From NCBI GenBank assembly GCA_017857195.1, contig JAFMDM010000005.1, positions 1-37,130 of the forward strand: DNA of 37,130 nucleotides, in the 5' to 3' direction. The position numbers were made by a program, and so were the translations under genes. Every line of letters begins with the position of its first letter. The first letter of the stretch is position 1. The notes beneath the pieces are model-generated. The model was not told the DNA's origin, made no database searches, and saw only the letters and a program-made list of their open reading frames with translations. Below are positions 5,800 to 29,140 of the stretch, piece by piece. Origin of the DNA: Methanobacteriota archaeon (GTDB lineage: Archaea; Thermoproteota; Thermoprotei_A; Sulfolobales; Sulfolobaceae).

Positions 5800-5823
5800 G
5801 TGGGAAGTAACCTCTCCGACACT

Positions 5824-6684
5824 ATGTTCACCGTTGTGGCGCTGGGAGGTAATGCCTTCTCCTCTGGTGCCCCAGGGCTTGAGGAGGATAGGCTTCAAGC
5901 GGCGGCTGAGGATGTGCTCTATCTCCTCACCCATGGCAGAGTGGTGGTCACCCATGGCAATGGTCCTCAGGTGAGCGCTATCCTGTCTGGCGATCACCTC
6001 AACCTGTGGGAGGCAGTAGCATGCACTCAAGGATGGATGGGGGCCTCACTTGCAGATGTGTTGGAGACCCTTATCAGGAAAAGAGGTCTTAACACCAAGG
6101 TTGTGGTACTCATAACTAGGGTCGTTACTAAGCCCTCCTCCACTTGGTTTAAGCCCATTGGAGAACCTCTGGATCAGTTAAGTGCTTCCCAATTGGTGGG
6201 GGCCAAGTTGATGAGGGACTCCAAGGGGAGACTCAGAAGGGCTGTTCCATCCCCTGAGCCACTATCTATCGTGGAAATAGACGCCATCAATATGTTAGTC
6301 AAGGAGGGATTCCTTGTCATATGTTGTGGTGGAGGTGGAGTACCTGTGGCAGAGGGAGAGAGGGTAGAGGCCGTTGTGGATAAGGACCTGGCCAGTCAGG
6401 TTCTAGCGAACGATTTGGGCGCAGACAGACTTATCATCCTCACAGACACCGATTTCGTCTACCTCAACTATGGCACCGCACAGCAGAGGCCTTTGAGCCA
6501 ACTTAAAGTTGAAGAGGCCATGAAACTCTATGCCATGGGACAGTTCGGCGAGGGCTCCATGGGTCCTAAGGTGTTGGCTGCAGCCAGGTTTATCAAGAAT
6601 GGAGGAAAGGAGGCTTATATAGGCAAGCTTGGTAGAATCAGGGAAATCCTTTCAAGGGAAGAGGGAACTGAGGTAATCCAATGA
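5824..6684 (+). CDS. arcC: Carbamate kinase
   Basis: Carbamate kinase transfers phosphate from carbamoyl phosphate to ADP, giving ATP and carbamate (then ammonia and CO2). The product has 286 residues and the full amino-acid-kinase pattern: VVALGGNA at the start, VVTHGNGPQVS at ~41-51, KPIGEP, VPSPEP, ICCGGGGVPV, VVDKDLASQVLANDLGADRLIILTDTDFVY and GEGSMGPKVLAA. The family is usually about 300-315 residues, so this is slightly short. I chose ATG 5824, placed for a leaderless message after the TATA box; the longer frame starts at GTG 5800. It overlaps the amidase gene by 4 bp (ATGA). In E. coli a carbamate kinase completes the oxamate branch of allantoin breakdown, and genes for that branch lie 12 kb downstream here. 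It could instead work in the anabolic direction. Confidence 0.92.
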   Translation: MFTVVALGGNAFSSGAPGLEEDRLQAAAEDVLYLLTHGRVVVTHGNGPQVSAILSGDHLNLWEAVACTQGWMGASLADVLETLIRKRGLNTKVVVLITRVVTKPSSTWFKPIGEPLDQLSASQLVGAKLMRDSKGRLRRAVPSPEPLSIVEIDAINMLVKEGFLVICCGGGGVPVAEGERVEAVVDKDLASQVLANDLGADRLIILTDTDFVYLNYGTAQQRPLSQLKVEEAMKLYAMGQFGEGSMGPKVLAAARFIKNGGKEAYIGKLGRIREILSREEGTEVIQ

Positions 6685-8009
6685 AGCTTCCAGCCGAACT
6701 GGAGACTCTCAAGCCCAGGCCTCTCCTCCTCCTTAAGCGTGAAGAGATCTCCAGACAATCCACGTCTCCAATAGAGGAGATCTCCAAGGCCATGAAGAAT
6801 GCGGAAAGTGAGAATAGGGAATACAATGACTATATTACGCTCAACTCTCACGCGCTGGAGGATGCCTCAAGAGTGGAGGCCGAGCTCAGGGCAGGAATAG
6901 GTGGTGCTCTAAGCGGCATTCCGATCTCGGTGAAGGACATCTTCCTCACCAAGGGGATGAGAACGACCATGGGCTCTAGGTTATTTGAACACTACATTCC
7001 CGACAGGGACGCAAGGGTAGTGAGTTCGCTAAGGGAGGCCGGGGCTGTGGTGATAGGTAAGACCAACCTGCATGAGTTCGCCTCTGGGGTCACAAACCTA
7101 AGCTCCTTGGTCGGCCCTGCCAGAAATCCGCACGATAAGTCAAGGATCACAGGAGGATCCAGCGGTGGTTCCGCGGCTTCCGTGGCCTTGGGTTCGGCCC
7201 TGGCCTCCTTGGGAACTGACACCTCCGGTTCCGTCAGAATACCGGCAGCGCTATGTGGAATTGTGGGGTATAAGCCGACCTATGATATGGTAAGCAGAGA
7301 GGGTGTGTTCCCCTTGGCGTGGAGCCTTGATCACGTCGGCGTTCTGGCCAGGACTGTTTCGGACGCAGCTTACGTTACTAACGTCCTCGAGGGGAGTTCG
7401 GGCAGCATTGATTTACCGTCGATCATTTCAGGAAAGGATCCCGCCAGGATATCTCTGGCCTACCTTGAGGAGGACTTGGAGTTCTACAACAAGTCCCTGG
7501 ACTCCCTTAGATCAGAGGGGATAGATTTGGCACCCGTCAAATTGGATCTGGAGGGCTGGGGGTCTCTTCAACGGGTCATAAGGCTGGCCGAGGCCGCCTC
7601 CGTACATAGGGAATATCTTGAAACCAGTTCCCACCTCTACTCCCCTGACGTCGCTGAGCTGCTCAAGCAGGGATCCAGGATAGAGGCTGTGGATTACATA
7701 GATTCCTTGAGGAAGAGGAGAGAGATAACCGACCAGTACCTAAGGGCCTTAAGGGATAGGGATGGGCTTTTAACTCCCACTGTTCCAACCACCGCACCTA
7801 AAATTGATGAAGTTAGGGACAGAGAGCTCCAGTTCAGATCAGTGGCCACGAAGTATGTTAGCTTTGTGAACTACCTTGGAGCTCCGGCGATCACGCTACC
7901 CTCAGGTGAGGTTCAAGGTCTCCCCGTCGGACTTCAGTTGGTTGGGAGGCCTTGGCAGGATTCCCAACTGTTGACCCTAGCTAGGACGTTGGAAGCCCTT
8001 CTTCGTTGA
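6681..8009 (+). CDS. Amidase-signature family hydrolase
   Basis: This is a Ser-cisSer-Lys amidase of 442 residues. The triad is visible: K85 in PISVKD, cis-Ser S160 in ITGGSSGGS, and nucleophile S184 in GTDTSGSVRIPA; the 24-residue spacing between the serines is standard. The C-terminal ALRDRDGLLTPTVPTTAPKI and NYLGAPAITLPSGEVQGLPVGLQLVGRP also fit the family. It is translationally coupled to carbamate kinase by an ATGA overlap, so its product may feed carbamate, ureide or amide nitrogen into the same route; allophanate hydrolase, ureide amidase and oxamate- or malonamate-type amidase are all conceivable. The GatA subunit of Asp/Glu-tRNA amidotransferase is less likely, because no gatB or gatC is nearby and the operon is catabolic. 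The exact substrate cannot be read from the sequence. Confidence 0.85.
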   Translation: MKLPAELETLKPRPLLLLKREEISRQSTSPIEEISKAMKNAESENREYNDYITLNSHALEDASRVEAELRAGIGGALSGIPISVKDIFLTKGMRTTMGSRLFEHYIPDRDARVVSSLREAGAVVIGKTNLHEFASGVTNLSSLVGPARNPHDKSRITGGSSGGSAASVALGSALASLGTDTSGSVRIPAALCGIVGYKPTYDMVSREGVFPLAWSLDHVGVLARTVSDAAYVTNVLEGSSGSIDLPSIISGKDPARISLAYLEEDLEFYNKSLDSLRSEGIDLAPVKLDLEGWGSLQRVIRLAEAASVHREYLETSSHLYSPDVAELLKQGSRIEAVDYIDSLRKRREITDQYLRALRDRDGLLTPTVPTTAPKIDEVRDRELQFRSVATKYVSFVNYLGAPAITLPSGEVQGLPVGLQLVGRPWQDSQLLTLARTLEALLR

Positions 8010-8032: not shown

Positions 8033-8890
8033 CTACTCTCCACATATTGCTAAGAGCCTAACGAAAGCCGATTCTCCTCCCAAGAACTTGAAGGGCGCCC
8101 CCACTATGAGGCATCTCCTGTTCTTTACCTCAGAGATCTCTCCGCCAGCGTTCTCCACATGCACTATTCCATGTCTGAAAGGAAGTATGTGCATTACTTG
8201 GTAGTTCTCAGGCCATGGCATTAACTGATCTATTTTCTTTCCATGTAGCTTCTCGAACTCCTCCACTATATCAGGCCTGACCTTCCTTATCACAGTGTTC
8301 AACGGATGGTCCTGGGACGTGGCGTCAACGGCCAACCACTTGAACTTAGACTTCATCACCCATTTGGCGAACTCCACTGTAGGTCCAGGATGCTTCAACA
8401 TATACCTCACCGTGTCTGCCTCCTTTTGATACCATGCGTACCTGTGGTAACCCGTATGTATGATCAGGATGTCACCAGCCTTAAGCTCGAGGTTGTGTTC
8501 CTTAACCTTCTTCTGGACCATTTCACTTGTGTATATTCCTAGATCCCCTACCTCCTCGCTTAAGTCCACTATTACTCCCTCGCCCACCCAATGCTCTATT
8601 GGCACTGAGCCTATGTCGGGCCCACTGGGAACGAAGTGTAGTGGACCGTCCATATGTGTCCCTATGTGAAGTGGAGTCATTATATATTGAGCTTGAACGT
8701 TATTTTCCGTCATTGTCTTTATCCATTTGAATTCAAAGGGCGGGTAAGTGGGGAATGGGGGAGTCAAATTACTTAGGGGTTGGGAAAGATCATACACCTT
8801 GACTTGCGACCATCTGGCCGTCTTGGATAAGTCGAACACGGGCTTACTTTTTGTATATTTTTCCCATTCTTCTAACCAGCCTTCAGGCAT
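8033..8890 (-). CDS. Cyclase-family metal hydrolase (isatin hydrolase / kynurenine formamidase-like)
   Basis: The product (285 residues) belongs to the cyclase family, whose members hydrolyse cyclic or formyl amides using Mn or Zn. The metal-binding motif HIGTHMDGPLHF is complete, with H75, H79, D81 and H85, and GDILIIHTGYHRYAW, followed by WLAVDATSQDHPLN and a late HGIVHVENAGG, fits the rest of the fold. Known members include isatin hydrolase, arylformamidase and several ring-opening amidohydrolases of N-heterocycles. It is encoded opposite to the amidase, with convergent ends 23 bp apart, and divergent from the next NCS1 permease. A role in opening a cyclic imide or lactam imported by that permease is a reasonable inference; kynurenine formamidase itself is not supported by any tryptophan-pathway neighbour. 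Confidence 0.85.
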   Translation of the reverse strand: MPEGWLEEWEKYTKSKPVFDLSKTARWSQVKVYDLSQPLSNLTPPFPTYPPFEFKWIKTMTENNVQAQYIMTPLHIGTHMDGPLHFVPSGPDIGSVPIEHWVGEGVIVDLSEEVGDLGIYTSEMVQKKVKEHNLELKAGDILIIHTGYHRYAWYQKEADTVRYMLKHPGPTVEFAKWVMKSKFKWLAVDATSQDHPLNTVIRKVRPDIVEEFEKLHGKKIDQLMPWPENYQVMHILPFRHGIVHVENAGGEISEVKNRRCLIVGAPFKFLGGESAFVRLLAICGE

Positions 8891-8921: not shown

Positions 8922-9093
8922 AGCGGTGGGTCGACTTTTCTGGATGTGGCTCATCCTTCTAGTTTGTTAACTCAGATCAGAGATCTCGGCCACTTGCCTT
9001 CTAATTAGATGCGATGAAGCACGGCCTTGAGGCAAGAGCAATGCGGTGTCGTTTGAAATCACGTGGTCGATGGATTCAGAAACACTCGGTCGA

Positions 9094-9103
9094 AAAATAT
9101 AAA
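9094..9103 (+). promoter_or_regulatory. TATA box for the second NCS1 permease
   Basis: AAAATATAAA is centred about 25 nt before ATG 9123, supporting that ATG as a leaderless start. The longer frame from 9063 would include the promoter and a non-conserved N-terminus. Confidence 0.55.
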
Positions 9104-9122
9104 TTATAGTTTCATTTTGATT

Positions 9123-10763
9123 ATGATGCACATGGCAGAAAAAGAAAAGGCAGAATATAATGAGAGAGTGGACACCGTCCACTATGATAGAGGAAGAGGT
9201 CAGGTGGAGCTACGCAAGGAATATACTAACGAGCCTTATCTTTGGAACAAGGACTTTCATCCTACTCCAATCACCATAAGGAAATGGGGGCCATGGACCT
9301 ACCTGGCAATTTGGTTCGGAATGGTGACCATAGTCCCCACGTGGACGCTTAGCGGAGTTGGCCTCGACTTCGGTCTCAATTGGTGGCAGTCAATTCTTCT
9401 CATGTTCCTTGGGAACCTCATAGTCCTGGTCCCTATGCTCATTCAATCTCACGGAGGTGCCAAATACGGTATGTCAGAGCCTCAATTGACGAGGACCAGA
9501 TGGGGAATCTACGGCGCCCAGATCCCCTCCTGGATAAGGGCTGTGATCTCCATGGGTTGGTGGGGGATAGAGTCCTATATCATAACTGAGGCCGCAGTGG
9601 CCATGTATCTGTTAAGTATAGGCCAAATACCTAAACTGTTGAGCGGTTCCACGTATACGCTCTCCGTAGCCTATCCCCAGATATTTTGGCCTACCTTCAT
9701 AGTGGTGGTTCTGGCTCAGCTGCTGCTCTTCTACGTCTCTCCACCCTTCAAGGGACAGCCGGCGCTAAAGTGGCTCGCCAGGGCGGCCGCACCAATAGTG
9801 CTGGTCGGGTTCCTGCTTCTCTTCTTCTATACCATGAATACGGCACACTGGAATTTCGCCCCCATAACCCAGATTCCAGACAAGGTAACTGGATTTGCAT
9901 TCTGGCTCGCAGTACTTGGATTCCTTAACGCCAACGTGGCCTATTGGGCAACCATGGCGTTGTCGATGCCCGACTTCACCAGGTTCGCCAAGTCACAGTT
10001 CGCCCAGACCACAGGTCAAATACCCATGCCCCTCATGATGGCCGCCGTTGGTGCTCTGGGTATAATGGCCACAGGGGCAACAATGGTGTTAGGATTAAAT
10101 CACGGCGCAGGGATTGCTGACCCAGTGATCTTGGCGGCAGCCATCCTGCCCAAGGCCGCAGCCTACTTCGTCCTCTTCGTCTTCATGTTGGCAACCTTCG
10201 TGGTCAACGTATTTGCAAACAGCGTTGCCCCAGGGTACGACATAGCTAACACATATTCCAAGTACCTCAGCTGGTTCAGGGGAATAGTAATAGGAGTCCT
10301 AATTAGCATGGCCCTTGGTGCCTGGACCTTCTACGCCGGTGGGGCTTACTCATACATCTACAACTGGCTTCTGGCGTACGGAGCACTCCTTGGAGCAGTG
10401 GAGGGGGTAATAGTGTTCGACTACGCAGTAGTCAGGAGATTCAAGTTCGAGCCAACCGACGTATATATGAGCCACGGAAGGTTCAGATACTGGCACGGCA
10501 TTAACCCTGCCGCCATTGTGAGCTTCGCAATTGGTACCGTGGTAACTTACTTGGCCTACTGGGGGTGGGTAGTAAACCCCATCACTCAAGTGCTGTATGC
10601 CAACTCCTGGATCTCAGCGTTTCTCATCACCGGCATAATTTACATCCTCCTCATGAGATATTGGGTGATACCTAAGTATCAACCTTGGCTTAAGGGAGGT
10701 CTTCTCAAGGGCTATACTGACAAGGAGATAGAGGAAATATTTGCACAAAGGAAGGACAGTTAG
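9123..10763 (+). CDS. NCS1-family permease, long type (paralogue of the 16.9-18.6 kb gene)
   Basis: This is an integral membrane transporter of 546 residues with about 12 spans. The N-terminal motif EPYLWNKDFHPTPITIRKWGPWTYLAIWFG and internal stretches QSHGGAKYGMSEPQLTRTRWGIYGAQIPS, ALSMPDFTRFAKSQFAQTTGQIP and FANSVAPGYDIANTYSKYLSW are typical of NCS1 purine/uracil/allantoin-like permeases. It is closely similar along its whole length to the product at 16912-18564, so the two are paralogues. I take the start as ATG 9123, after a good TATA box; a second ATG follows at once. It is divergent from the cyclase gene. A T-rich stretch follows its stop. The substrate is unknown; having two long and one short permease in one island suggests uptake of several related compounds. 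Confidence 0.88.
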   Translation: MMHMAEKEKAEYNERVDTVHYDRGRGQVELRKEYTNEPYLWNKDFHPTPITIRKWGPWTYLAIWFGMVTIVPTWTLSGVGLDFGLNWWQSILLMFLGNLIVLVPMLIQSHGGAKYGMSEPQLTRTRWGIYGAQIPSWIRAVISMGWWGIESYIITEAAVAMYLLSIGQIPKLLSGSTYTLSVAYPQIFWPTFIVVVLAQLLLFYVSPPFKGQPALKWLARAAAPIVLVGFLLLFFYTMNTAHWNFAPITQIPDKVTGFAFWLAVLGFLNANVAYWATMALSMPDFTRFAKSQFAQTTGQIPMPLMMAAVGALGIMATGATMVLGLNHGAGIADPVILAAAILPKAAAYFVLFVFMLATFVVNVFANSVAPGYDIANTYSKYLSWFRGIVIGVLISMALGAWTFYAGGAYSYIYNWLLAYGALLGAVEGVIVFDYAVVRRFKFEPTDVYMSHGRFRYWHGINPAAIVSFAIGTVVTYLAYWGWVVNPITQVLYANSWISAFLITGIIYILLMRYWVIPKYQPWLKGGLLKGYTDKEIEEIFAQRKDS

Positions 10764-12043: not shown

Positions 12044-14362
12044 ATGACGGATATAGAGAGAGTCGACGCTCTCGATAAGGTCACCGGAAGGGCCCTCTAC
12101 GTTTATGACTTGAAGTTTCCGGGTATGTTATACGCTGCCCTTGTGAAGAGCACGGTCCCCCATGGAATAATTAAGAAAGTGGATCCGTCCAGAGCCTTAG
12201 CCAGAGAAGGAGTGGAGGCGGTAATAACAGGGTCTCAGCTCTCCCATGTGAGAGCAGGAATCTACATTCAGGATAGAACTCCCATGGCGGCGGAGAAAGT
12301 TAGATATTTGGGGGAGCCTGTGGCGGCCGTGTTGGCCAGGGACCTCAGGAGTGCCAGGGAGGCCGCGGAAATGGTTGAGGTTGATTACCATGAACTTTCA
12401 GCTGTTGTAGATCCAAGGGAGGCCCTGAGAGAGGGTGCGCCGCTGGTTCACGAGAAGCTTCAGGAGTACCACAGATACCAGGAAATAAAGCCCCTTCCCA
12501 ACTCAAACGTTGCCAACGTCTTTCGTTTGAGAAAGGGAGATGCCCAGTCGATCCTCCAGAGGAGTGATTTGGTGGTGGAGGACACCTACACCGAGGCAAT
12601 GATCAGTCACGCCTATATGGAGCCCATGTCCGTGATCGCGTGGTGGAACCCCGACGGCACATTGGAGCTCTGGACCAGCGCCCAGTCTCCATTCGCCGTG
12701 AGGAACCTCCTCTCCAAGGCCCTTGAACTCTCAGAGAGTAGAATCGTTGTACATGTGCCTTACGTAGGAGGAGGATTCGGAGGGAAGGCTGGACTACATT
12801 TGGAGCTACTGGTGGCCCTACTATCCAAGGCAGTTGGGGGAAGGCCCGTTAAGTTGACCCTCTCAAGGGAGGACAACTTCTACGTTGCCCCAAGCAAAGT
12901 TGGAGTTTCGGCCGAGGGCAAGGTGGGTCTATCTAAGGAGGGGAAGATATTGGCGCTAATGGTTAACTATCTTGTTGACGCGGGAGCTTACGCAGACTAT
13001 GCGGTCAATGTGGGAAAGACAATGGGCTACATAGGTGCTGGGCCCTACGATGTGCCAAACGTATGGATAGACTCAACTACCGTTTATACCAACAAGCCTT
13101 TCGCCACTGCCTTTAGGGGATTCGGCATTCTTGAGGCTCACTGGGTGGTTGAGAGGCTGCTAGAGACCGCCTCGAGGAAGTTGGGTGTAGATCCTGTTCA
13201 GTTTAGGTTAATGAACAGGTTAAGGCCAGGCTCCACCACGTCAACGGGACAAAGGATAACTGAGGGAAGCGGTGACCTAGCTAAATGTCTGCAGGTGGCT
13301 GCGGACATGGTAGGATGGGGTTCACGTAAAAGTTCCTCTCATCCCACCTATGTAGGTCGCGGTGTGGCCCTGGCAATGAAGGGACCCTCCGTTCCCCCCT
13401 ATAATAGCGCCCAGGCCTATCTCAAGTTCAACGAGGACGGAACGTTGGATGTGAGCGTGGGAACCACGGAAATAGGACAGGGGACCATGACCTCCATTGT
13501 GCAGCTTGTGGCGGAGGAGTTCGGCATTCAACCCAACAAGGTGCGGGTTGACTTGGTCAAGGATACAAGCAGATCCGCCTACACCTGGCAGACAGTGGGT
13601 AGTAGGAGCCTCTTCTACGACGGAAATGCTGTGTTGGCAGCAGTTGATGACGCTAAGTCTCAAATAAGGAGGATCGCGTCCAAGGTCTTCAATGTGGAGG
13701 AGGAGGAGATCTCCATAGGTGGAGGAAAGGTCTTCGTAAAGGGAGGCTCCAGGGCCCTGGACCTCAAGGACGTTGTCATGGGGTACGTCACAGCTAACGG
13801 GAACGTAATCGGCTCCCCCGTGGTGGGAAGGGGATCCTTCGTGGTACCGGACTTAACTTACCTGGACTCTCAAGGTCAGGGAAATCCATTTCCTGTAATA
13901 ACGTTCGGCGCTCAGTCGGTGGAAGTGGAGGTGGACGTGCTCACTGGGGTGGTGAAGGTCAACAAATATGTGGGGGTCTTCGACCTGGGCAGGGTTGTGA
14001 ACAGGGGTCTCGCCATGGATCAGTTGGTAGGAGGAGCGGTCATGGCCATAAGCTTGGCACTCAACGAGTCCATTAAGTTCGACGAAGGTGGAGCGATCCT
14101 GAACCCAAACCTGGTTGACTACAAGGTGGCGGAGATAGGGGATGTGAACGATAACTTGATTGGAGTCTTCCTGGAGAACCCAGACCCCAAAGGGCCCAGG
14201 GGTGCCAGGGGAATAGGGGAGAACGCTCTCCTCGGAATTCCCGCCGCCATAGGCAACGCCATTTATGATGCAATTGGGGTTTCTGTCAGGGACCTTCCGA
14301 TCACACCGGAGAGGTTATGGAGAGAAATAAGGGCCCAAAGGCCTGAGCTCTTGGAGGTGTGA
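12044..14362 (+). CDS. Molybdenum hydroxylase large subunit (xanthine dehydrogenase / aldehyde oxidoreductase family)
   Basis: This is the molybdopterin-binding catalytic subunit (772 residues) of a three-subunit hydroxylase that adds water-derived oxygen to an aldehyde or N-heterocycle. It starts IERVDALDKVTGRALYVYDLKFPGMLYA as the family does, and carries VPYVGGGFGGKAG, ATAFRGFGILEAHWV, TTEIGQGTMT, and the catalytic-glutamate region GPRGARGIGENALLGIPAAIGNAI. The CO-dehydrogenase AYxCSFR loop is absent (AYTWQTVGSRS instead). By my recalled alignment, bovine xanthine dehydrogenase Glu802 and Arg880 correspond to Ala and Thr here, so xanthine as substrate is not supported directly. Sulfolobales use relatives of this enzyme for glyceraldehyde oxidation, which is the main alternative. 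The island context suggests a purine or pyrimidine hydroxylase. It overlaps the FAD subunit by 4 bp. Confidence 0.88.
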   Translation: MTDIERVDALDKVTGRALYVYDLKFPGMLYAALVKSTVPHGIIKKVDPSRALAREGVEAVITGSQLSHVRAGIYIQDRTPMAAEKVRYLGEPVAAVLARDLRSAREAAEMVEVDYHELSAVVDPREALREGAPLVHEKLQEYHRYQEIKPLPNSNVANVFRLRKGDAQSILQRSDLVVEDTYTEAMISHAYMEPMSVIAWWNPDGTLELWTSAQSPFAVRNLLSKALELSESRIVVHVPYVGGGFGGKAGLHLELLVALLSKAVGGRPVKLTLSREDNFYVAPSKVGVSAEGKVGLSKEGKILALMVNYLVDAGAYADYAVNVGKTMGYIGAGPYDVPNVWIDSTTVYTNKPFATAFRGFGILEAHWVVERLLETASRKLGVDPVQFRLMNRLRPGSTTSTGQRITEGSGDLAKCLQVAADMVGWGSRKSSSHPTYVGRGVALAMKGPSVPPYNSAQAYLKFNEDGTLDVSVGTTEIGQGTMTSIVQLVAEEFGIQPNKVRVDLVKDTSRSAYTWQTVGSRSLFYDGNAVLAAVDDAKSQIRRIASKVFNVEEEEISIGGGKVFVKGGSRALDLKDVVMGYVTANGNVIGSPVVGRGSFVVPDLTYLDSQGQGNPFPVITFGAQSVEVEVDVLTGVVKVNKYVGVFDLGRVVNRGLAMDQLVGGAVMAISLALNESIKFDEGGAILNPNLVDYKVAEIGDVNDNLIGVFLENPDPKGPRGARGIGENALLGIPAAIGNAIYDAIGVSVRDLPITPERLWREIRAQRPELLEV

Positions 14363-15174
14363 GCTTGCTCCCCAACTTCAAGCTAGAGCTCCCCACAGAT
14401 CTAAAGGAAGCGATAAGTGAGTTGGCCGGAGGGAACGTCGTCATTGCCGCGGGAGCTACTAGGGTCTTGCTCATGTCCTATATGCATATTTTACGACCTG
14501 AGGTTGTTGTGTCGATAAGGAGGATAGGCCTGAGGGAGATCAAGGTTAGTGATGAGCTGGAAGTGGAGGCCAACGTCACCCTATCAGCGGTTGCTAGGAA
14601 CGAGAGGGTGAGGAAGGAATTCCCGTTGGTGGCTGCCTCGGCCTCCCACGTCGCTGATCCCCTGGTGAGGAACAAGGCCACAGTTGTGGGAAATGTAGTC
14701 AACGCAGTACCCTATTCATCCATGGTCCCAGCGTTCCTCCTCATGGATGGCAAGGCCAAGGTGGTGGGACCCAGCGGGCCTAGGGAGATAAGTGCCAAGG
14801 ACTTCTTCGTGGGTCCCCTCGAGACGGCCCAGAGGCCCGATGAGCTAGTTACGTCGCTTACCTTCAGAAGGGTGGAGGGAGAATGGGGTTTCACGGAGTT
14901 CAGGACCGACAGTCAGCTTCCTATTATTAACGTTGGCGTCCTTAGAAATAAAAAGGGAAAGGTGAGGGTCGCTTACACGGGCCTCACAGCCATGCCCAAT
15001 CTCCTTGATCTGGGGACTATGCCGTCCGACTTCAGGGGTGGCTACAGGGAGGTGAGAAACATCTTACAGGACCTGTCAACACAGGTCTTGGATGACCTGA
15101 GGTCAAGTGCGGAGTATAGATTGCACCTGGCCTCTGTTCTTACTGCCAGACTATTGGAGGGGATGGGAAGATGA
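14359..15174 (+). CDS. Molybdenum hydroxylase FAD-binding (medium) subunit
   Basis: This is the flavin subunit (271 residues) that passes electrons from the iron-sulfur subunit to the acceptor. It shows the two FAD-contact regions of the CoxM/XdhB family: NVVIAAGATRVLLMSYMHILRPEVVVSIRRI at about residues 28-60 and DPLVRNKATVVGNVVNAVPYSSMVPAFLLMDGKAKV at about 98-133. The first loop differs from the common AGGxxLL form (AAGATRVLL), so flavin binding may be modified. The GTG start overlaps the stop of the large-subunit gene (GTGA), and the end overlaps the 2Fe-2S gene by 4 bp, giving the order large-medium-small. Confidence 0.87.
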   Translation: MSLLPNFKLELPTDLKEAISELAGGNVVIAAGATRVLLMSYMHILRPEVVVSIRRIGLREIKVSDELEVEANVTLSAVARNERVRKEFPLVAASASHVADPLVRNKATVVGNVVNAVPYSSMVPAFLLMDGKAKVVGPSGPREISAKDFFVGPLETAQRPDELVTSLTFRRVEGEWGFTEFRTDSQLPIINVGVLRNKKGKVRVAYTGLTAMPNLLDLGTMPSDFRGGYREVRNILQDLSTQVLDDLRSSAEYRLHLASVLTARLLEGMGR

Positions 15175-15626
15175 AGATCAAATTCAGGCTCAACGGGAGG
15201 GACGTGGAGGCTGATGTTCACCCAAGCGAGACTCTGTTGGAGACCATCAGGGATAGGTTCGAGATAACGAGCCCCAAGGGCGCCTGCACACAGGGAGTGT
15301 GTGGACTCTGCGTTGTCTTGGTTGATGGGGAGCCGCTGAAGTCCTGCCTTGTCCTAACTCCTGAAGTTCAAGACTCTACAGTCACCACTTTGGAGGGGAT
15401 CAAAGACGAAAGAATTGAGACGGTGAGGGAGAGTTTCGTAGAGAAACATGGCTTCCAATGCGGCTTCTGTACGCCGGCGTTCATCCTAAGGACCTACACC
15501 CTGTTGGGGAGGAAGTTAAGTCGCGAGGAGATAAGGGAGGAGTTGAAGGGGACTCTCTGCAGATGCACTGGCTACAAGGCCATTGTGGACTCGGTCGAGG
15601 AGGCTTTGATCAAGGTGAGGGAGTGA
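15171..15626 (+). CDS. Molybdenum hydroxylase 2Fe-2S (small) subunit
   Basis: This is the two-cluster iron-sulfur subunit (151 residues). The plant-type ferredoxin cluster is C39, C44, C47 and C59 (CTQGVCGLC and KSC). The second cluster is C97, C100, C130 and C132 (CGFCTP and CRCTGY). Both sets are complete. It carries electrons from the Mo centre to the FAD subunit. It overlaps the medium-subunit gene by ATGA and ends the catalytic trio. The CodA-type gene follows 48 nt later with a possible promoter of its own. Confidence 0.93.
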   Translation: MKIKFRLNGRDVEADVHPSETLLETIRDRFEITSPKGACTQGVCGLCVVLVDGEPLKSCLVLTPEVQDSTVTTLEGIKDERIETVRESFVEKHGFQCGFCTPAFILRTYTLLGRKLSREEIREELKGTLCRCTGYKAIVDSVEEALIKVRE

Positions 15627-15674
15627 ATCTAACTTGAGTGATTGAGTTTTTTATCACCGAATAGAACCACCCCC

Positions 15675-16937
15675 ATGGACTTAGTGTTGAGGAACTGCAG
15701 GCTCCTGGAGAGGGAGGGACTTTATGATCTACTCATTACCAAGGGGAGGATCTCGAAAATAGGGAAGGACCTCAAGGCGGATAATAGTTACGACGCCCTC
15801 GGGAGGCTGTTAATACCAGGCATGGGAGACATGCACGTTCATTTGGATTCAGCCATGACCTTGGGAAGACCAAGGTTCAACCAGAGCGGGACCCTATTGG
15901 AGGGCATTGAGATCTGGGGTGAGTATAAGAAGTCCCTTAGCAAAGATGAGGTCAAGGCTAGGGCTAGGAGGGCGGTGGAGTGGATGGTGGTTCAGGGCGT
16001 AACCATGATCAGGACTCACGCAGACGTCACTGAATCGAGGTTAGAGGGGCTTAGGGGGCTCCTGGAGCTCAGGGAGGAGATGAGGGACCTGGTGAACATT
16101 CAAGTGACCGCCTTTCCGCAAGATGGGATATTGACGGATAATGGGAATCTTGAACTCCTTGAGAAGGCGATGGAAATGGGCGCCGACAACGTGGGAATGA
16201 TCCCTCACAACGAAATGACAAGGGAGGACGGTGTAAAGTCTATCTCCTTGGCATTTGATCTGGCTCAGAAATATGGAAGGGGAGTGGACGGCCACGTGGA
16301 TGAAACGGACGATGAGGGTTCAAGGTTCCTAGAGGTCGTGGCCTCTGAGACATACAAGAGGGGAATGGCAGGTAGAGTGGCGGCAGGACACGTGACCGCA
16401 ATGCACTCCTACAACGGTGCCTACGCTGATAGGCTAATGAGGCTCCTTAAAAGGGCAGGGGTTAACGTTGTAGTGAATCCAGCAGTTAACCTTCACCTAC
16501 AGGGCAGATATGACACTTACCCAAAAAGGCGCGGCCTAGCCAGGATTAAGGAACTGTTGGCCGGCGGAGTGAACGTCTCTCTGGGTAACGACTGCCTCAT
16601 GGATCCTTGGTATCCTCTGGGTAGAGGGGACATACTCCAGTCTTTGTATTTGGCAGTTCATGCGGCACATCTGACCTCCTATGGGGAGGTGGTCAGGTCA
16701 CTGGATCTCGTCACCTATAACGCGGCCAAGACCTTCGGCCTCCGCGAGTATGGAATAATGGAAGGAGCGGTGGCGGACCTGGTTTTGTTGGATGCCACCC
16801 ACCCCTTGGAGGTGGTGCGGGATCAACCCACCAGGTTGTTGGTGATGAAGGGGGGAAAAGTTGTGAGTGTGGGAGAGCCTGAAAAATATCGCCTCTCCTC
16901 GGGGAAGGAAGTTAACTTCTCACCTTCTCTCCCTTGA
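15675..16937 (+). CDS. codA: CodA-type cytosine deaminase / related amidohydrolase
   Basis: The product (420 residues) is an amidohydrolase-superfamily deaminase close to E. coli CodA. Shared stretches include QSGTLLEGIE, AMHSYNGAY, HLQGRYDTYPKRRG and DPWYPLG. Metal and catalytic residues expected from CodA are present at a constant offset of 7: H54, H56, H207, E210, H239 and D306. However, the residue after the metal aspartate is C307, where CodA has D314, a substrate-contact residue. Cytosine deamination to uracil is therefore the first guess, but isoguanine, creatinine-like or other ring amines are possible. I chose ATG 15675 because it starts the conserved MDLVLRNCRLL and lies 26 nt after a T-rich TATA-like element; a TTG at 15642 would add 11 residues. 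The 3' end overlaps the convergent permease gene by 26 bp. Confidence 0.85.
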   Translation: MDLVLRNCRLLEREGLYDLLITKGRISKIGKDLKADNSYDALGRLLIPGMGDMHVHLDSAMTLGRPRFNQSGTLLEGIEIWGEYKKSLSKDEVKARARRAVEWMVVQGVTMIRTHADVTESRLEGLRGLLELREEMRDLVNIQVTAFPQDGILTDNGNLELLEKAMEMGADNVGMIPHNEMTREDGVKSISLAFDLAQKYGRGVDGHVDETDDEGSRFLEVVASETYKRGMAGRVAAGHVTAMHSYNGAYADRLMRLLKRAGVNVVVNPAVNLHLQGRYDTYPKRRGLARIKELLAGGVNVSLGNDCLMDPWYPLGRGDILQSLYLAVHAAHLTSYGEVVRSLDLVTYNAAKTFGLREYGIMEGAVADLVLLDATHPLEVVRDQPTRLLVMKGGKVVSVGEPEKYRLSSGKEVNFSPSLP

Positions 16938-18564
16938 ATATTTCCTCTGTATCCTTGGCCACATAACCCTTTAACAAGTTTCCCTTGAGCCATGGTTGGT
17001 ACTTCGGTATTATCCAAGTAACCATGAGAACAGTGTAGAGCAAACCTGAGATCAGTATTGCTGAAATCCAGGAATCCTGGAACACCCAACCTTGCCCAGG
17101 ATAAAGTGAACTCAGGGAGGTTGGAAGATATGAATTGGGAGGGAATACCAGGATCATGGTTATAGCGAAGGCAATTATTGCAGCGGGATTCACGCCCTTG
17201 AAATACCTGAACCTTCCCTTGGAGTAGAAAACGTCGTACAACTCGAACTTAAACCTCCTCAGTAAGGCATAGTCGAACACTATGATCCCTTCCACTCCCC
17301 CCAGCAACGCACCGTAGGTGAGTAGCCAGTTCTCCACGTAGCTGAAGGCGTTGAAGTAGTAGGTCCAGGACTGTAGGGCGGCGGCAATAAGTACCACAAT
17401 CACCACCCCGGCGAACCAACTTAGTTTCTTTGGGTAGAGGTTACTGAAGTCATAGGCCGGTCCCACAGTGTCAGCGTAAATGTTCACCACCACTACCCCA
17501 AGCAACAGTAGGAAGAGCGCTGTAATTGCCATGGCTGGATTAGTTACGGATATTGCCGTGAGCACTATGGGGTCCCAAATGGGGGTCTTAAAGACCACGT
17601 AGGACGCGCCGGTAGTTACCAGACCGAAGGCACCTATGGCTGTCATAAGGAGAGGTAATGGAATCTGTCCGGTGGTCTGAGCGAACTGTGATTTGGCGAA
17701 CCTGGTGTAATCTGGCATCGATAACGCCATGGTTGCCCAGAAGGCCACGTTGGCGTTGATTAAGCCGATCAATGCGTACCAGAAGGCAGAACCTGAGACC
17801 GTTGTGGGTATGTTGAGTATGGGCTGCCAGTGCCAGTTGGCCAACGACATAACATTGAAGAATAGTATGAAGAAACCGGCGAAACTGACGAATGGAACGG
17901 TCCAGCTAACGATCTTCAACACCCTCTGACCCGTTCTGGGAGGAGAGACGTAGAGGAGGGCCAACCGGGCAGCTATGGTTGCCAAGAAGACCCCCCAGAA
18001 TAGATCTGGATTTATTGTGGCTATAAGGAAAGGTAAATCGGCAGGGTTTTGGGAGACTAGGTTCAGGAGAGTTGCAGTGTTGTGAGTGAGTATCAAATAC
18101 ATGGCTCCTATCGCCTCGGATATTATCCACGTGTCAATGCCCCACCACCCAGCCCCGATTATTCCCCTAAGAAGGGAGGGCACCCAGTTCCCATATATTC
18201 CCCATCTACTTCTCGTTAATGGAGTTTCAGGAATTCCATATCTGGCTCCACCATGACTCTGTATTATCATGGGTATGAGAACTATGAGGTTACCCGCGGC
18301 CACAGAGATCAAGCTCCAGAACCAGTTCAATCCAAAGGAATAGCCTATTGAGACCAAAGCCCAGGACTCCACTTCCATTGCCATTCCGAACCATATGGCG
18401 AAAAACGTCCAGGACCCCCAATTCCTGAGCCTCACTGGGGTAGGATGAAAGTCCTCGTTCCAGAGGTACTTCTCCTCAGGGAACTTTCTTTTTAATTCTA
18501 GATATCCTTTATCCTTGTAAAATTGAGTGGCTTCAACTCTCTCTATTTCTCTTTCTTCAGCCAT
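16912..18564 (-). CDS. NCS1-family permease, long type (paralogue of the 9.1-10.8 kb gene)
   Basis: This is an integral membrane transporter (550 residues, about 12 spans) of the NCS1 family. It shares with its paralogue EKYLWNEDFHPTPVRLRNWGSWTFFAIWFG, QSHGGARYGIPETPLTRSRWGIYGNWVPS, ALSMPDYTRFAKSQFAQTTGQIP and the closing PKYQPWLKGNLLKGYVAKDTEEIF. The loop between about residues 455 and 485 (MILVFPPNSYLPTSLSSLYPGQGW) is different in the two copies, so substrate choice or folding there may differ. The ATG start is 26 nt from a TATA-like element. It is convergent with the CodA-type gene, overlapping its end by 26 bp, and divergent from the fdrA operon. It may bring in the substrate of the CodA-type enzyme. 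Confidence 0.88.
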   Translation of the reverse strand: MAEEREIERVEATQFYKDKGYLELKRKFPEEKYLWNEDFHPTPVRLRNWGSWTFFAIWFGMAMEVESWALVSIGYSFGLNWFWSLISVAAGNLIVLIPMIIQSHGGARYGIPETPLTRSRWGIYGNWVPSLLRGIIGAGWWGIDTWIISEAIGAMYLILTHNTATLLNLVSQNPADLPFLIATINPDLFWGVFLATIAARLALLYVSPPRTGQRVLKIVSWTVPFVSFAGFFILFFNVMSLANWHWQPILNIPTTVSGSAFWYALIGLINANVAFWATMALSMPDYTRFAKSQFAQTTGQIPLPLLMTAIGAFGLVTTGASYVVFKTPIWDPIVLTAISVTNPAMAITALFLLLLGVVVVNIYADTVGPAYDFSNLYPKKLSWFAGVVIVVLIAAALQSWTYYFNAFSYVENWLLTYGALLGGVEGIIVFDYALLRRFKFELYDVFYSKGRFRYFKGVNPAAIIAFAITMILVFPPNSYLPTSLSSLYPGQGWVFQDSWISAILISGLLYTVLMVTWIIPKYQPWLKGNLLKGYVAKDTEEIFKGEKVRS

Positions 18565-18951: not shown

Positions 18952-20520
18952 ATGGTAAACAATGAGATCAGACTGACCAGGCCTGAGTTCAGGAAGGCAA
19001 TTATCTCTAAGAACACCTTCCGGGACTCGGTGTTCCTGCTGAAGGTTACCGAGGAGGTCAGGAGACTTCCAGGGGTGAGGGAGGCCCTGGTGGGAATGGG
19101 AACTGACACCAATCTGCAACTAATTAAAACCCTTGGGCTATGGGGAGAGGAATTGGCCACAGTTCAATCCAATGACTTAGTGGTTGTGGTTGGGGGAGTC
19201 AATCAGGAGGCAGTGGAGAGGGCCATTTCCGCTGCCCAATCCCTACTGGAGGGAGTAAAGGAGGAATCCCAATACTCAACCCTGGAGCAGGCACTCTCGG
19301 CCCTCCCGGATCCTAGCCTCGTGGTGATATCTATACCTGGAAAGTACGTGAAAGAGGTGGCCTTACCTTTGGTGGAAAAAGGAATCAACATCCACATCTT
19401 CAGCGACAATGTTCCGTTGGAGGACGAAGTGCTCCTAAAGAGGACGGCCTCTCAAAAGGGATGTTTCGTTCTAGGTCCAGGAGCTGGTACGGTCCTTGTG
19501 AGGGGTGTCGGAACTGGATTTGCTAATAAAGTAAACCCTGGTCCGGTGGGGATTTCCTCCGCTTCAGGGACGGGTCTGCAGGAGCTCAGCTCCATGCTAT
19601 CTGAGAGCGGAACGGGCATCTCCTATGGACTTGGAGTAGGAGGGAATGACGTGAAGGATCAGGTGGGGGGGATAATGATGCTTCAGTCCCTCAAGTTCCT
19701 GGACGAGGACCCGGACACCACCATTATTAATGTAGTTAGCAAGGTGCCCGATCCCTCAACTGCGGAGAAGGTGATGCGCTATGCAGATGGATTAAGGAAG
19801 CCCACTGTAGTCACTCTCCTGGGACTCCAGGGAAAAGGGGAGAGAAGGGGAAACGTGATCTACTCCAGGACAATTCATCAAGCTGCAGCCTCCACGGCCA
19901 GATTACTCGGCAGAGACGTCCTATCCAACTTCCTCAAGAGTTACCATCTTACCTTCGAGGCAGTGAAGGAGATCGCGTCGTCCATTCGCGTAAACGGGAG
20001 GGTTGTAGCCCTTCTCACCGGAGGTACTTTCGCCAACGAGGGGACCCTGATCCTCTCCTCCGCTGGGTTAAGGGTGGGTCAGGATCTCAGCTCCGCGAAC
20101 GCCGTCATCGACCTAGGTGAGGAAGAATACACAAGGGGGAGGCCTCACCCCATGATAGATCCAACGATAAGGATTAACATGTTGAGGGATCTGGCTGAAG
20201 AGGAGGTGAGTTTAGTGTTAATGGACTTCGTACTGGGCTTTGGTGCCCACTCCGATCCAGTTGGTGCCCACGCAGAGGCCATAAACCAGCTTCTCTATAC
20301 CAATGAGAAGAGGGGTGGGAAGGTTTTCGTTCTCGCACACCTTTGCGGTACCTCAGGGGATCCACAGGGACTGCGGGAACAGGAGGATAAACTCCGTTCC
20401 TTGGGGGTGACCGTTATGCCCTCCAACGCCCTCACCTTTTTGGTTGCCGCTGGAGCAATTACAGGAGACTGGGAGAGGTTGAGGCTGCTTCATCAGCAGT
20501 TGGTGGAGGTGGTTCAATGA
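18952..20520 (+). CDS. fdrA: FdrA/AllF-like subunit of an oxamate carbamoyltransferase-type complex
   Basis: The 522-residue product has the FdrA pattern, an acyl-CoA-synthetase (NDP-forming)-like fold: NTFRDSVFLLKVTEEVRRLPGV at the start, VGMGTDTNLQLIKTLGLW, DLVVVVGG, the FSDNVPLEDEVLLKRTASQKGCFVLGPGAGT segment, SASGTGLQELSSMLSESGTGISYGLGVGG, and GRPHPMIDPTIRINML. E. coli FdrA (recalled as about 555 residues) has the same motifs but an extra C-terminal segment; here that segment is a separate gene that overlaps this one by 4 bp. In E. coli, FdrA with YlbE and YlbF (AllF, AllG, AllH) was assigned as oxamate carbamoyltransferase, making oxamate and carbamoyl phosphate from oxalurate. All partners follow in order here. 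The promoter is strong and leaderless. That the archaeal complex uses oxalurate is inferred. Confidence 0.88.
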   Translation: MVNNEIRLTRPEFRKAIISKNTFRDSVFLLKVTEEVRRLPGVREALVGMGTDTNLQLIKTLGLWGEELATVQSNDLVVVVGGVNQEAVERAISAAQSLLEGVKEESQYSTLEQALSALPDPSLVVISIPGKYVKEVALPLVEKGINIHIFSDNVPLEDEVLLKRTASQKGCFVLGPGAGTVLVRGVGTGFANKVNPGPVGISSASGTGLQELSSMLSESGTGISYGLGVGGNDVKDQVGGIMMLQSLKFLDEDPDTTIINVVSKVPDPSTAEKVMRYADGLRKPTVVTLLGLQGKGERRGNVIYSRTIHQAAASTARLLGRDVLSNFLKSYHLTFEAVKEIASSIRVNGRVVALLTGGTFANEGTLILSSAGLRVGQDLSSANAVIDLGEEEYTRGRPHPMIDPTIRINMLRDLAEEEVSLVLMDFVLGFGAHSDPVGAHAEAINQLLYTNEKRGGKVFVLAHLCGTSGDPQGLREQEDKLRSLGVTVMPSNALTFLVAAGAITGDWERLRLLHQQLVEVVQ

Positions 20521-20684
20521 GTGGAATGTATGCCTTAAGAGGGGAACTAAAGGTCATAAATGTGGGCAGTTCCCACTTCCACGATCAGTTGAGGAGACAA
20601 GGGGTGAGGTCCATTCAGGTGAATTGGCGTCCTCCAGTGGAACTTGAGGACGACCTTCAGGACATATTGAAGGAGGTGCTCTGA
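20517..20684 (+). CDS. 55-residue stand-alone FdrA C-terminal module
   Basis: A short gene fills the gap between fdrA and the DUF1116 gene: ATG overlaps the fdrA stop (ATGA) and its TGA overlaps the next ATG (TGATG). The product runs MSGMYALRGELKVINVGSSH, then FHDQLRRQGVRSIQVNWRPP and an acidic helix-like end (ELEDDLQDILKEVL). The core (VINVG, a hydrophobic helix, then xVxWRPP) matches the last ~50 residues of E. coli FdrA (VINIG, then VHYQWSPVAGG). From recalled lengths, E. coli YahF lacks this piece while YahG is longer than YlbE, so it may be fused to DUF1116 there. It is probably a real subunit or detached domain of the complex. A nonsense mutation splitting fdrA is unlikely because the overlap shifts the reading frame. 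Confidence 0.8.
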   Translation: MSGMYALRGELKVINVGSSHFHDQLRRQGVRSIQVNWRPPVELEDDLQDILKEVL

Positions 20685-21949
20685 TGTCGCTCAGGGAGGA
20701 AATAGAGAAGGCCAATCAAATGGCAGTTGAGAGGATGATGGAGGCCTCAGCCCTATGGGTGGACGTGGTCGAGGCAGGCAGGAAGCTTGCGGTGTTCTCT
20801 CAGCCCACCATACTTCACGCCGGTCCTCCGGTGGAATGGGAGAGCGCCTCAGGTCCGCTCAGGGGGGCACTAATTGGGGCAACCCTGCTGGAGGGTTGGG
20901 CAGACGATCCTCAATCGGCTGAGAGGAAGTTAGCCAAGGGCGAAATAAGGCTCCTCCCCACCCACGAGGTGGGAGTGGTCGCACCCATGGCTGGTGCGGT
21001 CTCACCCTCAATGCCGTTAGTGGTGATCAGGGATCCGAAGTATGGTAACGAGGCCTACTCCAACCTTAACGAGGGTATTGGAAAGGTGTTGAGGTATGGG
21101 GCATATGACGAGACTGTGCTCAAGCGATTGAAGTGGATGGGCTCGGAACTTTCCTCAGCATTTAAGGCCGCAGTGGACCAGGCGGTGAAGGAAAGAGGAG
21201 GGATGGACGTCAAGTTGATCTTGACCCAGGCCCTGAACATGGGAGACGAGGGTCATAACAGACATGTGGCTGGTACGTCACTCTTCCTCAACGAGTTGGT
21301 TAGGTACATGATTATGTCGGATTTGCCAAAGGAAGTTACCCTAAGGGTGGTTGACTTCGTTAAGGGTAATAACTTCACGTTCCTTAACTTCGCCATGGCC
21401 GCTGGAAAGGTGATGACCCTGGCCGCTCACAACATTAAGTACAGTACAGTGATTACGGTGATGAGCAGGAACGGTACGGAGGCAGGAATATGGGTGAGCG
21501 GCCTTGGGAAGACCTGGTTCACGGCTCAGGCCAAAATACCCCAGGGTGTCCTGTTTCCAGGCTTCAGGCCCGAAGACGCCAACCCTGACATTGGGGATAG
21601 CGCGATCACCGAGACCTCCGGCTTCGGTGGGTTTGCCATGGCCGCAGCACCATCAATAGTTTCCTGGGTTGGGGGGAGCGTACAATTCGCTGTGGAGAAC
21701 ACTGAGAGGATGTATCAGATCACCCTTGCCAAGCATAGATACTTCAAGATCCCCTATCTTTCATTCCAGGGGACCCCAACTGGGCTGGACCTCAGGAAGG
21801 TGGTGAAGACTGGGATAGAGCCCACCATAAATACGGGCATAGCCCACAAACAGCCGGGAGTGGGACAGATAGGAGCGGGAGTGGTGTCCATGTCCATTGA
21901 AATGTTCAAGAGGGCTCTGAGACATTATGCCCAGGAATATGGCATATAA
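20684..21949 (+). CDS. DUF1116 protein (YlbE/AllG-like), oxamate carbamoyltransferase-type complex
   Basis: This is the DUF1116 subunit (421 residues, like E. coli YlbE). Conserved-looking blocks are GPPVEWESASGPLRGALIGATLLEGWA (about 46-72), APMAGAVSPSMPLVVI, LTQALNMGDEGHNRHVAGTSLFLNELVRYM, NNFTFLNFAMAAGKVMTLAA, VMSRNGTEAGIWVSGLGKTWFTAQA and DIGDSAITETSGFGGFAMAAAP. The charged GDEGHNRH block is a likely catalytic or ligand-binding site, although I know of no firm residue assignment. The gene is coupled to the 55-residue gene by a 1-bp overlap and to the DUF2877 gene by a 23-bp overlap, so the four products are made together, as expected for subunits of one complex. No membrane segments are evident, so it is cytoplasmic. 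Confidence 0.88.
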   Translation: MSLREEIEKANQMAVERMMEASALWVDVVEAGRKLAVFSQPTILHAGPPVEWESASGPLRGALIGATLLEGWADDPQSAERKLAKGEIRLLPTHEVGVVAPMAGAVSPSMPLVVIRDPKYGNEAYSNLNEGIGKVLRYGAYDETVLKRLKWMGSELSSAFKAAVDQAVKERGGMDVKLILTQALNMGDEGHNRHVAGTSLFLNELVRYMIMSDLPKEVTLRVVDFVKGNNFTFLNFAMAAGKVMTLAAHNIKYSTVITVMSRNGTEAGIWVSGLGKTWFTAQAKIPQGVLFPGFRPEDANPDIGDSAITETSGFGGFAMAAAPSIVSWVGGSVQFAVENTERMYQITLAKHRYFKIPYLSFQGTPTGLDLRKVVKTGIEPTINTGIAHKQPGVGQIGAGVVSMSIEMFKRALRHYAQEYGI

Positions 21950-22730
21950 GGCCTCGTCCCTGGGGGAGGACCTCCTATGGGAGCTAATGAGGCGCGGCTC
22001 CTTGGCCATGGAGGTGGCCGAGAGGACAAAGGATAACGTCTACGCCGTTTTCCACGGTCACTTAGTGCCGGTGGCCCAGGAACCTCTGCTCACCCCCTTC
22101 TCCGTATCTCTGAGCTCCCAGGGTCCAGTTGAGGTTTCCTTTGAAGGTAACTTCATGATCCTCACCGCCCACGCTCAGCCTCTATCCATTGGGAGGCCTG
22201 GGGAGAGCCCTGGCGAAATTAAAGGGTGGCCGGAGTTGGTGAAGCTCGCCTCAGTGTTGGGCTCCCTCTTGCGTGGGGATCTGGATTTACATGTGTCCAG
22301 GTTGGCGTTAAAGTTGTTGGAGGAGGGATGGCCGGACCCCGAGGCGGTCATAGAGGGGGCCCAGCGTTACGTTGGGGCGGGGGCGGGAAGTACGCCTTCC
22401 TTCGACGACTTCCTGGCAGGGTACATAACAGGGTGGGGGAGATCCCTTCAAGCCAGACTCGACCTAAGTAACACCACCTATCTCAGTAGGGCAATACTCT
22501 CCGAGGTCCTCGCCGACAGGGATTACCTTGTGGAGGTAGCTCGAGTCAGAGAGTGTGCCAAGGGTAGGGGAGACCTGCTTCACCACTCATTGAGGGTGGC
22601 ATCAATGGGGGGTTCCTCTGGGATCTTCATGCTTCTTGGTGTAACCTCAGCCCTCCTTCAGAGGGTTGGAGAGAAGGATGTTCTGTTAAAGCTTTGGAGG
22701 TCAATAGGAGGGACGCATCGATCCCCGTGA
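21927..22730 (+). CDS. DUF2877 protein (YlbF/AllH-like), oxamate carbamoyltransferase-type complex
   Basis: This is the DUF2877 subunit (267 residues, AllH-like). The family hallmark is the glycine-rich acidic block [22 protein letters not shown] at about residues 150-171 (G-x-G-x-TPSxDDFLxG in relatives), and the C-terminal [32 protein letters not shown] also fits. In E. coli the homologue works with FdrA and YlbE. The start is ATG 21927 inside the DUF1116 gene; ATG 21939 is also possible. Its last 104 bp are overlapped by the end of the convergent Hje gene, an unusually long 3'-3' overlap. It closes the four-gene operon. Confidence 0.83.
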
Positions 22731-23112: not shown

Positions 23113-23136
23113 GGACCCAGAGTTATTGGGTAACAT

Positions 23137-27157: not shown

Positions 27158-27177
27158 ATGAGAACCTCGCGGTTCCA

Positions 27178-27185
27178 CTTATAAG
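27178..27185 (-). promoter_or_regulatory. TATA box for the hyuA operon
   Basis: CTTATAAG is itself palindromic. On the minus strand it is centred about 25 nt before GTG 27157, which supports a leaderless start there. Confidence 0.5.
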
Positions 27186-27440: not shown

Positions 27441-27448
27441 CTTATTAG
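27441..27448 (+). promoter_or_regulatory. TATA box for the ABC importer operon
   Basis: ACTTATTAG is centred about 28 nt before ATG 27473, again consistent with a leaderless start for the first gene. Confidence 0.5.
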
Positions 27449-27472
27449 TAGCCATAAGTAGCCTTAATTGCG

Positions 27473-29134: not shown

Positions 29135-29140
29135 GAACAG

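Follow-up and report, generated by a model that had tools for sequence, protein, structure and literature searches.

In the oxidative pyrimidine pathway of Rhodococcus, uracil is degraded by a uracil dehydrogenase, a barbiturase (PF09663) and a ureidomalonase, so that ureidomalonate ends as urea and malonate. Ureidomalonate, which is ring-opened barbiturate, is the next homologue of the N-acylurea oxalurate and gives malonamate. A reaction on oxalurate is carried out in E. coli by AllFGH, which has been shown biochemically to interconvert oxalurate and oxamate plus carbamoyl phosphate (PMC11326118). In ammonia-oxidising archaea and comammox Nitrospira, allFGHK genes are linked to biuret hydrolase and have been read as an oxalurate degradation system, so that archaeal allFGH is not in itself a first (PMC12625717). 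Here we describe an archaeal locus in which allF, allG and allH homologues lie in a different company. It lies in a 37,130-nucleotide stretch of DNA from a Sulfodiicoccus genome (contig JAFMDM010000005.1 of assembly GCA_017857195.1; the whole stretch is called the window below), and we propose, with a probability of roughly 55%, that it is an oxidative and probably energy-conserving pyrimidine catabolic island in which AllFGH splits ureidomalonate. The window genome is a draft of 193 contigs and 1.78 Mb that is 88% complete, and the sole congener among the genomes searched, Sulfodiicoccus acidiphilus, has a closed genome of a single contig of 2,353,189 bases. Strain HS-1 of S. acidiphilus is an obligately aerobic heterotroph that grows at 65-70 C and pH 3-3.5 and is without an autotrophic carbon-fixation pathway (PMC6647314).

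The core of the island is formed by four tightly coupled, overlapping genes on the forward strand: allF (18952..20520), a 55-amino-acid open reading frame (20517..20684), allG (20684..21949) and allH (21927..22730), with overlaps of 4, 1 and 23 nucleotides, respectively. An earlier sequence-only reading of the window had placed their products in the FdrA, AllG (DUF1116) and AllH (DUF2877) families, and profile checks against all three models matched. AllF, which carries CoA_binding and CoA-ligase domains, matches the NCBIfam FdrA model (E = 1.6e-112; 376.8 bits, under the subfamily cut-off of 433) and the crystal structure of FdrA from E. coli, PDB 3dmy (E = 1.2e-63); it is 33.6% identical to E. 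coli AllF, with which it shares the invariant residues H399-P-M-x-D403...R407. AllG matches its own Pfam model (PF06545, 1.7e-82, 276.6 bits against a cut-off of 27) and PDB 3clq (2.7e-104), with 44.6% identity to E. coli AllG and 50% to a homologue on an Aminobacter plasmid. AllH is divergent, matching its Pfam model (PF11392) at 6.4e-8 and 33.6 bits (cut-off 25), and is 61% identical to its counterpart in the congener. Homologues of all three subunits of the AllFGH oxamate carbamoyltransferase are therefore found together in one operon. Since the families are so assigned and the conserved island also encodes a carbamate kinase, it is a fair prediction that the complex would phosphorolyse an N-carbamoyl amide to carbamoyl phosphate.

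The 55-amino-acid gene had been counted as a fourth member of the set. The open reading frame is real and conserved, with 75.6% of the aligned part identical in the congener and a ratio of non-synonymous to synonymous substitution (dN/dS) of 0.07, although it is not an unrelated gene: its product matches positions 507-553 of the FdrA model (E = 3.4e-4) and aligns both with the ~50 C-terminal residues of E. coli AllF and with the extension that YahG and other AllG homologues have at their N-terminus. It is a detached AllF-C-terminal/AllG-N-terminal module, and the C-terminal part of AllF is thus present in the window as a gene of its own. By a profile search of every fetched locus, the module is the C-terminal part of AllF in E. 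coli, in Anaerolineae and at one further locus, the N-terminal part of AllG in most bacteria, and a free gene of ~60 amino acids in archaea of the order Sulfolobales, in some additional archaea and in a few bacteria. Because the module is fused elsewhere to AllF or to AllG, it probably forms the interface between the two subunits, and in each of its three states it would mark a likely subunit contact.

The carbamate kinase lies where the sequence-only reading had put it, at 5.8 kb in the same island (5800..6684, +). It matches AA_kinase at 1.5e-26, scores 247 bits against arcC (under the equivalog cut-off of 358), shares 38% identity with AllK of E. coli, and adjoins allG and CYC, the hydrolase gene described next, in one relative (G033) and allG in another (G044). 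Use of carbamoyl phosphate by a hyperthermophile had been held to be a new setting on account of the heat-lability of this compound. Pyrococcus has a carbamate-kinase-like enzyme and channelling, and such use in hyperthermophiles is known already, so that heat-lability by itself does not make the setting new. Overlapping the kinase gene is that of an amidase-signature hydrolase (6681..8009, +; PF01425, 7.8e-96), with homologues at 13 of 80 related loci; we propose it as a malonamate amidase or a ureidomalonase, two subtypes between which the sequence does not separate.

Three further enzymes give the island its proposed pyrimidine character. CYC, a PF04199 cyclase-like, metal-dependent ring-opening hydrolase (8033..8890, -; PF04199, 1.1e-34), is a candidate barbiturate hydrolase. 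Its family membership is borne out both by the metal-binding motif HxGTHxDxxxH, which as H75-x-G-T-H79-x-D81-x-x-x-H85 is invariant in 29 homologues, and by an AlphaFold model (predicted local distance difference test score, pLDDT, 88.5) that matches isatin hydrolase and kynurenine formamidase in fold. Isatin hydrolase itself opens a cyclic amide. The second enzyme is a molybdenum hydroxylase, a putative uracil dehydrogenase, composed of a large subunit (12044..14362, +; MoCoBD_1/2, Ald_Xan_dh_C), an FAD subunit (14359..15174, +; FAD_binding_5, 5.5e-33) and a [2Fe-2S] subunit (15171..15626, +; Fer2_2, 2.1e-24, and Fer2). Its identification as a xanthine dehydrogenase was disfavoured: the large subunit falls below all xanthine dehydrogenase equivalog cut-offs, and, in the window as in most of these clusters, it reads GGKA where the animal and Rhodobacter-type xanthine dehydrogenases carry GGKE. 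The replacement of this glutamate by alanine makes xanthine a less likely substrate. The third is a cytosine-deaminase (CodA-family) amidohydrolase (15642..16937, +; NF005748, 463 bits against a cut-off of 438; 1e-123 to PDB CodA) in which the catalytic residues H61, H63, Q156, H214, E217, H246 and D313 are conserved, and which would supply the entry enzyme for cytosine and uracil that an oxidative pyrimidine pathway calls for. The enzymes are accompanied by three NCS1-family nucleobase permeases, termed a (4309..5697, -; PF02133, 3.9e-14; 86% identity in the congener island), b (9063..10763, +; PF02133, 1.5e-65) and c (16912..18564, -; PF02133, 3.8e-59; 89% identity in the congener).

The order of these genes, from permease a through carbamate kinase, amidase, CYC, permease b, the molybdenum hydroxylase genes, the deaminase and permease c to allF, the 55-amino-acid gene, allG and allH, is kept in the congener. 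In all 11 of the 11 island genes tested against it, synonymous sites are at or near saturation and non-synonymous divergence (dN) is only 0.06-0.38; that is, the genes are under purifying selection.

The association between AllG and CYC extends well beyond the genus. In a sample of 60 genomes made up of the window genome and its relatives, AllG is present in 10, and a close CYC (62-100% identity, E <1e-120) in the same 10; of 200 genomes taken from the phylum, both are present in 12, AllG alone in three and CYC alone in one. Relatives from other families of the order keep allF, the 55-amino-acid gene, allG and allH together with CYC (62-70% identity), the molybdenum hydroxylase and often carbamate kinase. 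An AllG alignment, used as a pattern against GTDB contigs, picked out at least 549 relatives, and the 80 loci that best match the window AllG, from archaea and many bacterial phyla, were compared. CYC is present at 45 of them, 37 of which also have molybdenum-hydroxylase subunits (Fisher 2e-5). Ring-opening amidohydrolases of the barbiturase/cyanuric acid hydrolase family occur at seven of the 80 and never alongside CYC (p 0.002); this mutual exclusion, and the same place taken beside allFG, suggests that the two are functional substitutes. The presence of CYC is strongly clustered on the AllG tree (11 changes, where shuffled labels give a mean of 30), the window falling in a 63-row half that holds 49 of the 52 CYC rows, while E. 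coli AllG sits on a long branch across a supported branch from the window protein. At Actinobacterial loci with molybdenum hydroxylase and AllFGH genes and no CYC, the neighbours tested as another ring-opener (aldose epimerase-like, DUF6986, baeRF-like, one without a family, MobA-like) suggest none.

The CYC-type clusters have other companions. One is a family of ~230-250 amino acids (for example L079:12191-12877, L050:7458-8171, L024:18338-19087 and L020:5719-6471, L-numbers denoting fetched loci) that is GNAT-like on visual inspection but has no match in Pfam and no convincing one in the PDB. It occurs in 15 of the 45 CYC-type clusters and in three of the 35 remaining loci, and several archaeal relatives at the level of the order have it too. 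In a spirochaete/Caldiserica subgroup (L079, L101, L103), a thiolase and a ChsH2-like zinc-ribbon protein adjoin CYC-type allFGH at ~12.8-14.5 kb.

Malonate is the proposed carbon product of the pathway. Three unrelated malonate-type systems adjoin CYC-type allFG: a biotin-independent malonate decarboxylase (L037; MdcA 890 bits, cut-off 789, gamma subunit 267, cut-off 237), a Na+-translocating decarboxylase set of MmdA-like, OadB, biotin carrier and OadG proteins (L050 and relatives; in L050 the beta subunit scores 483 bits against a cut-off of 191), and a malonyl-CoA synthase (L058; 565 bits, cut-off 558). At least one malonate-type gene is present at 11 of the 45 CYC loci and at none of the 35 others (p 0.0018), a count somewhat biased by the greater length of the CYC loci. 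MdcA and malonyl-CoA synthase are the malonate-specific members; the MmdA-like protein of L050 (884 bits) is under its own cut-off of 999, and such proteins could serve methylmalonyl- or propionyl-CoA chemistry.

In the pathway that we propose, the NCS1 permeases would import nucleobases, the CodA-like enzyme would deaminate cytosine to uracil, and the molybdenum hydroxylase would oxidise uracil at C6 to barbiturate. CYC, in place of the classical barbiturase, would then hydrolyse barbiturate to ureidomalonate (HOOC-CH2-CO-NH-CO-NH2), an N-acylurea that the complex of AllF, the 55-amino-acid protein, AllG and AllH would split with phosphate into malonamate and carbamoyl phosphate, by the same chemistry as the E. 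coli reaction of oxalurate and phosphate to oxamate and carbamoyl phosphate. From the carbamoyl phosphate, carbamate kinase would make ATP, with NH3 and CO2 as the other products; malonamate would be cleaved by the amidase into malonate and NH3. Such a route would save one carbamoyl phosphate, hence an ATP by way of carbamate kinase, and the malonyl unit, as against the loss of urea. We found no description in the open-access literature of a barbiturate or uracil pathway with carbamoyl phosphate, carbamate kinase and molybdenum hydroxylase. That it represents a widespread and previously undescribed pathway of archaea and many bacterial phyla, leading from uracil or cytosine to barbiturate, a PF04199 ring-opener and ureidomalonate phosphorolysis of the AllFGH type, is a more tentative proposal, to which we give a little less than an even chance. 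Were it correct, there would be a substrate for the large AllFGH-like family of at least 549 relatives, now annotated from the single precedent of E. coli allantoin breakdown; a PF04199 subfamily would gain a function as a second, unrelated kind of barbiturase; a pyrimidine route to carbamoyl phosphate, and so potentially to ATP, would be defined in anaerobes and thermophiles; and allFGH in archaea and nitrifiers should not be read as oxalurate degradation.

Several points weigh against this proposal. The linkage evidence is strong, and the chemistry is a specific inference from it: the substrates of all steps, the direction in which AllFGH would run and the interface role of the module are deduced from gene identities, linkage, co-occurrence and conserved residues. 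The 80 loci were picked by similarity to the window AllG, so their counts are phylogenetically non-independent, and CYC loci are longer than the others (median 20.6 against 13.9 kb). Carbamate kinase is found inside the fetched flanks of just six of the 45 CYC loci, which means that carbamoyl phosphate may be used otherwise than by this enzyme. Since S. acidiphilus is obligately aerobic (PMC6647314), ATP from carbamoyl phosphate would be a minor gain, and nitrogen supply may be the main use. In the window deaminase the residue equivalent to D314 of CodA is cysteine, so that its substrate may differ from that of CodA. The malonate genes, finally, sit in relatives, none having been identified in the window; a CoA-transferase family III gene ~2.4 kb past allH in S. 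acidiphilus (L016:5200-6426), although it shares 45.6% identity with a gene of the bacterial CYC-type cluster L044, is not malonate-specific.

The rival explanations differ chiefly in the compound handed to the complex. The sequence-only reading had taken the operon for the oxamate carbamoyltransferase of allantoin breakdown, converting oxalurate and phosphate to oxamate and carbamoyl phosphate. It could appeal to the homology with E. coli AllFGH and AllK, to weak matches of the NCS1 permeases to allantoin permease models (123 bits against a cut-off of 620 for permease b), and to the fact that a substrate shift is not readable from sequence. Against it, models of allantoinase and of AllD (ureidoglycolate dehydrogenase) gave nothing above cut-off in either Sulfodiicoccus genome (the best allantoinase scores are 258 bits for the congener and 60 for the window genome, with a cut-off of 358), AllC and AllE not having been searched genome-wide; the 80 loci hold no homologue of AllC, AllD or AllE and only two AllB-like matches of 26-32% identity; E. 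coli AllG is set apart by a supported branch on the tree; and the usual partners of AllG are a ring-opening hydrolase and a molybdenum hydroxylase. Genome searches and neighbourhood counts thus lead us to reject allantoin as the source, an origin that we regard as distinctly unlikely: the neighbours point to pyrimidines and malonate, and the operon, though real and correctly named to family, had been assigned to the wrong pathway. The GGT gene (33558-35114) was considered as an oxamate amidohydrolase and set aside, as only generic GGT models match it, below cut-off. A route of the cyanuric acid or biuret type, in which the complex would split carboxybiuret or biuret, is plausible for those plasmid and clostridial relatives whose neighbours include cyanuric acid hydrolase and allophanate hydrolase. 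The plasmid relatives (49-50% identity) have a ring-opening amidohydrolase and carbamate kinase as neighbours, one of them atzF as well; the ring-openers of L045 and L085 score above the cyanuric acid amidohydrolase cut-off; and biuret hydrolase is linked to the genes in ammonia-oxidising archaea (PMC12625717). For the window this is unlikely, in that PF09663 has no match in either Sulfodiicoccus genome, the window included (a search without a positive control), the molybdenum hydroxylase has no place in the route, and the malonate enzymes cluster solely with the CYC type. The Rokubacterial locus L085, which combines a CodA-like protein, a ring-opening amidohydrolase and molybdenum hydroxylase subunits, was not used as proof of barbiturate because its ring-opener scores as cyanuric acid hydrolase.

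The presence of HyuA/HyuB close by (23652-27178), together with the fact that the CodA family also includes creatinine deaminase, would allow a creatinine/hydantoin route, with the deaminase acting on creatinine, HyuA/HyuB opening the hydantoin and the complex splitting an N-carbamoyl amino acid. Such a route is very unlikely and was rejected: HyuA/HyuB was not found within 60 kb around the congener island and hence is no part of the conserved island, and CYC and the molybdenum hydroxylase would be left unexplained. In the window these genes sit with an oligopeptide ATP-binding cassette transporter, pyroglutamyl peptidase and GGT (23652-35114), a separate set that is probably a cluster for 5-oxoproline and peptide use. 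There is a small but real chance that the architecture serves another cyclic ureide, either thymine, via 5-methylbarbiturate to methylmalonamate, or parabanate, opened to oxalurate. The conserved chemistry requires just an N-acylurea, and the MmdA-like decarboxylase subunits of relatives would suit methylmalonyl units; yet the scores of MdcA and malonyl-CoA synthase above cut-off, along with the cytosine deaminase, favour the uracil series, and parabanate would give no malonate. The degradation of uracil through ureidomalonate remains our preferred reading.

The two Sulfodiicoccus genomes diverge in gene content to the right of allH. There the 3' ends of allH (+) and of hjc (-), which encodes a Holliday-junction resolvase, overlap by 104 bases (window 21927-23136), and the C-terminal part of the window Hjc does not align with the Hjc of the congener. 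Elsewhere in the window, a porG homologue that is intact in the window (701-1255) is split over two open reading frames in S. acidiphilus (L017:11960-12543). Among the more distant relatives, L104 and L107 (Rhodoferax, Comamonas) join a GGT-like gene to allF, carbamate kinase, allH and allG, and fall in one group with E. coli AllG; they possibly combine oxalurate use with oxamate hydrolysis. Conjugative plasmids of Aminobacter, Klebsiella and Citrobacter carry allFG-like genes, carbamate kinase and a ring-opening amidohydrolase (L011, L012, L014); for both AllF and AllG, the Aminobacter and Klebsiella plasmids have their accessions in common.

Set beside the described systems, the island resembles E. 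coli AllFGH (FdrA-YlbE-YlbF) and AllK in AllF, AllG and carbamate kinase identity, in the AllH domain and in the AllF HPM-D-R motif; it differs in having the AllF C-terminal module as a separate gene, and in being linked to a PF04199 hydrolase, a molybdenum hydroxylase and a cytosine deaminase, the window holding no allantoin genes. The YahE-YahF-YahG-YahI proteins of E. coli form a similar set of AllH-, AllF-, AllG- and carbamate-kinase-like members, but there the module is fused to the YahG N-terminus and neither CYC nor a molybdenum hydroxylase is adjacent. The ammonia-oxidiser loci share archaeal allFGH and carbamate kinase with the window and sometimes have a cytosine permease and an uncharacterised amidase (PMC12625717), whereas the window has CYC and a molybdenum hydroxylase and no biuret hydrolase. 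CYC itself is like the PF04199 isatin hydrolase and kynurenine formamidase in structure (Foldseek E ~1e-16, template-modelling score 0.6-0.7 by query length) and in its HxGTHxD motif, but at 16-20% identity it belongs to a distinct, longer subfamily tied to allFG. With the Rhodococcus pathway, the island as proposed here would share the logic of uracil to barbiturate to ureidomalonate to malonate, and it would depart from that pathway in using a PF04199 ring-opener and phosphorolysis to carbamoyl phosphate.

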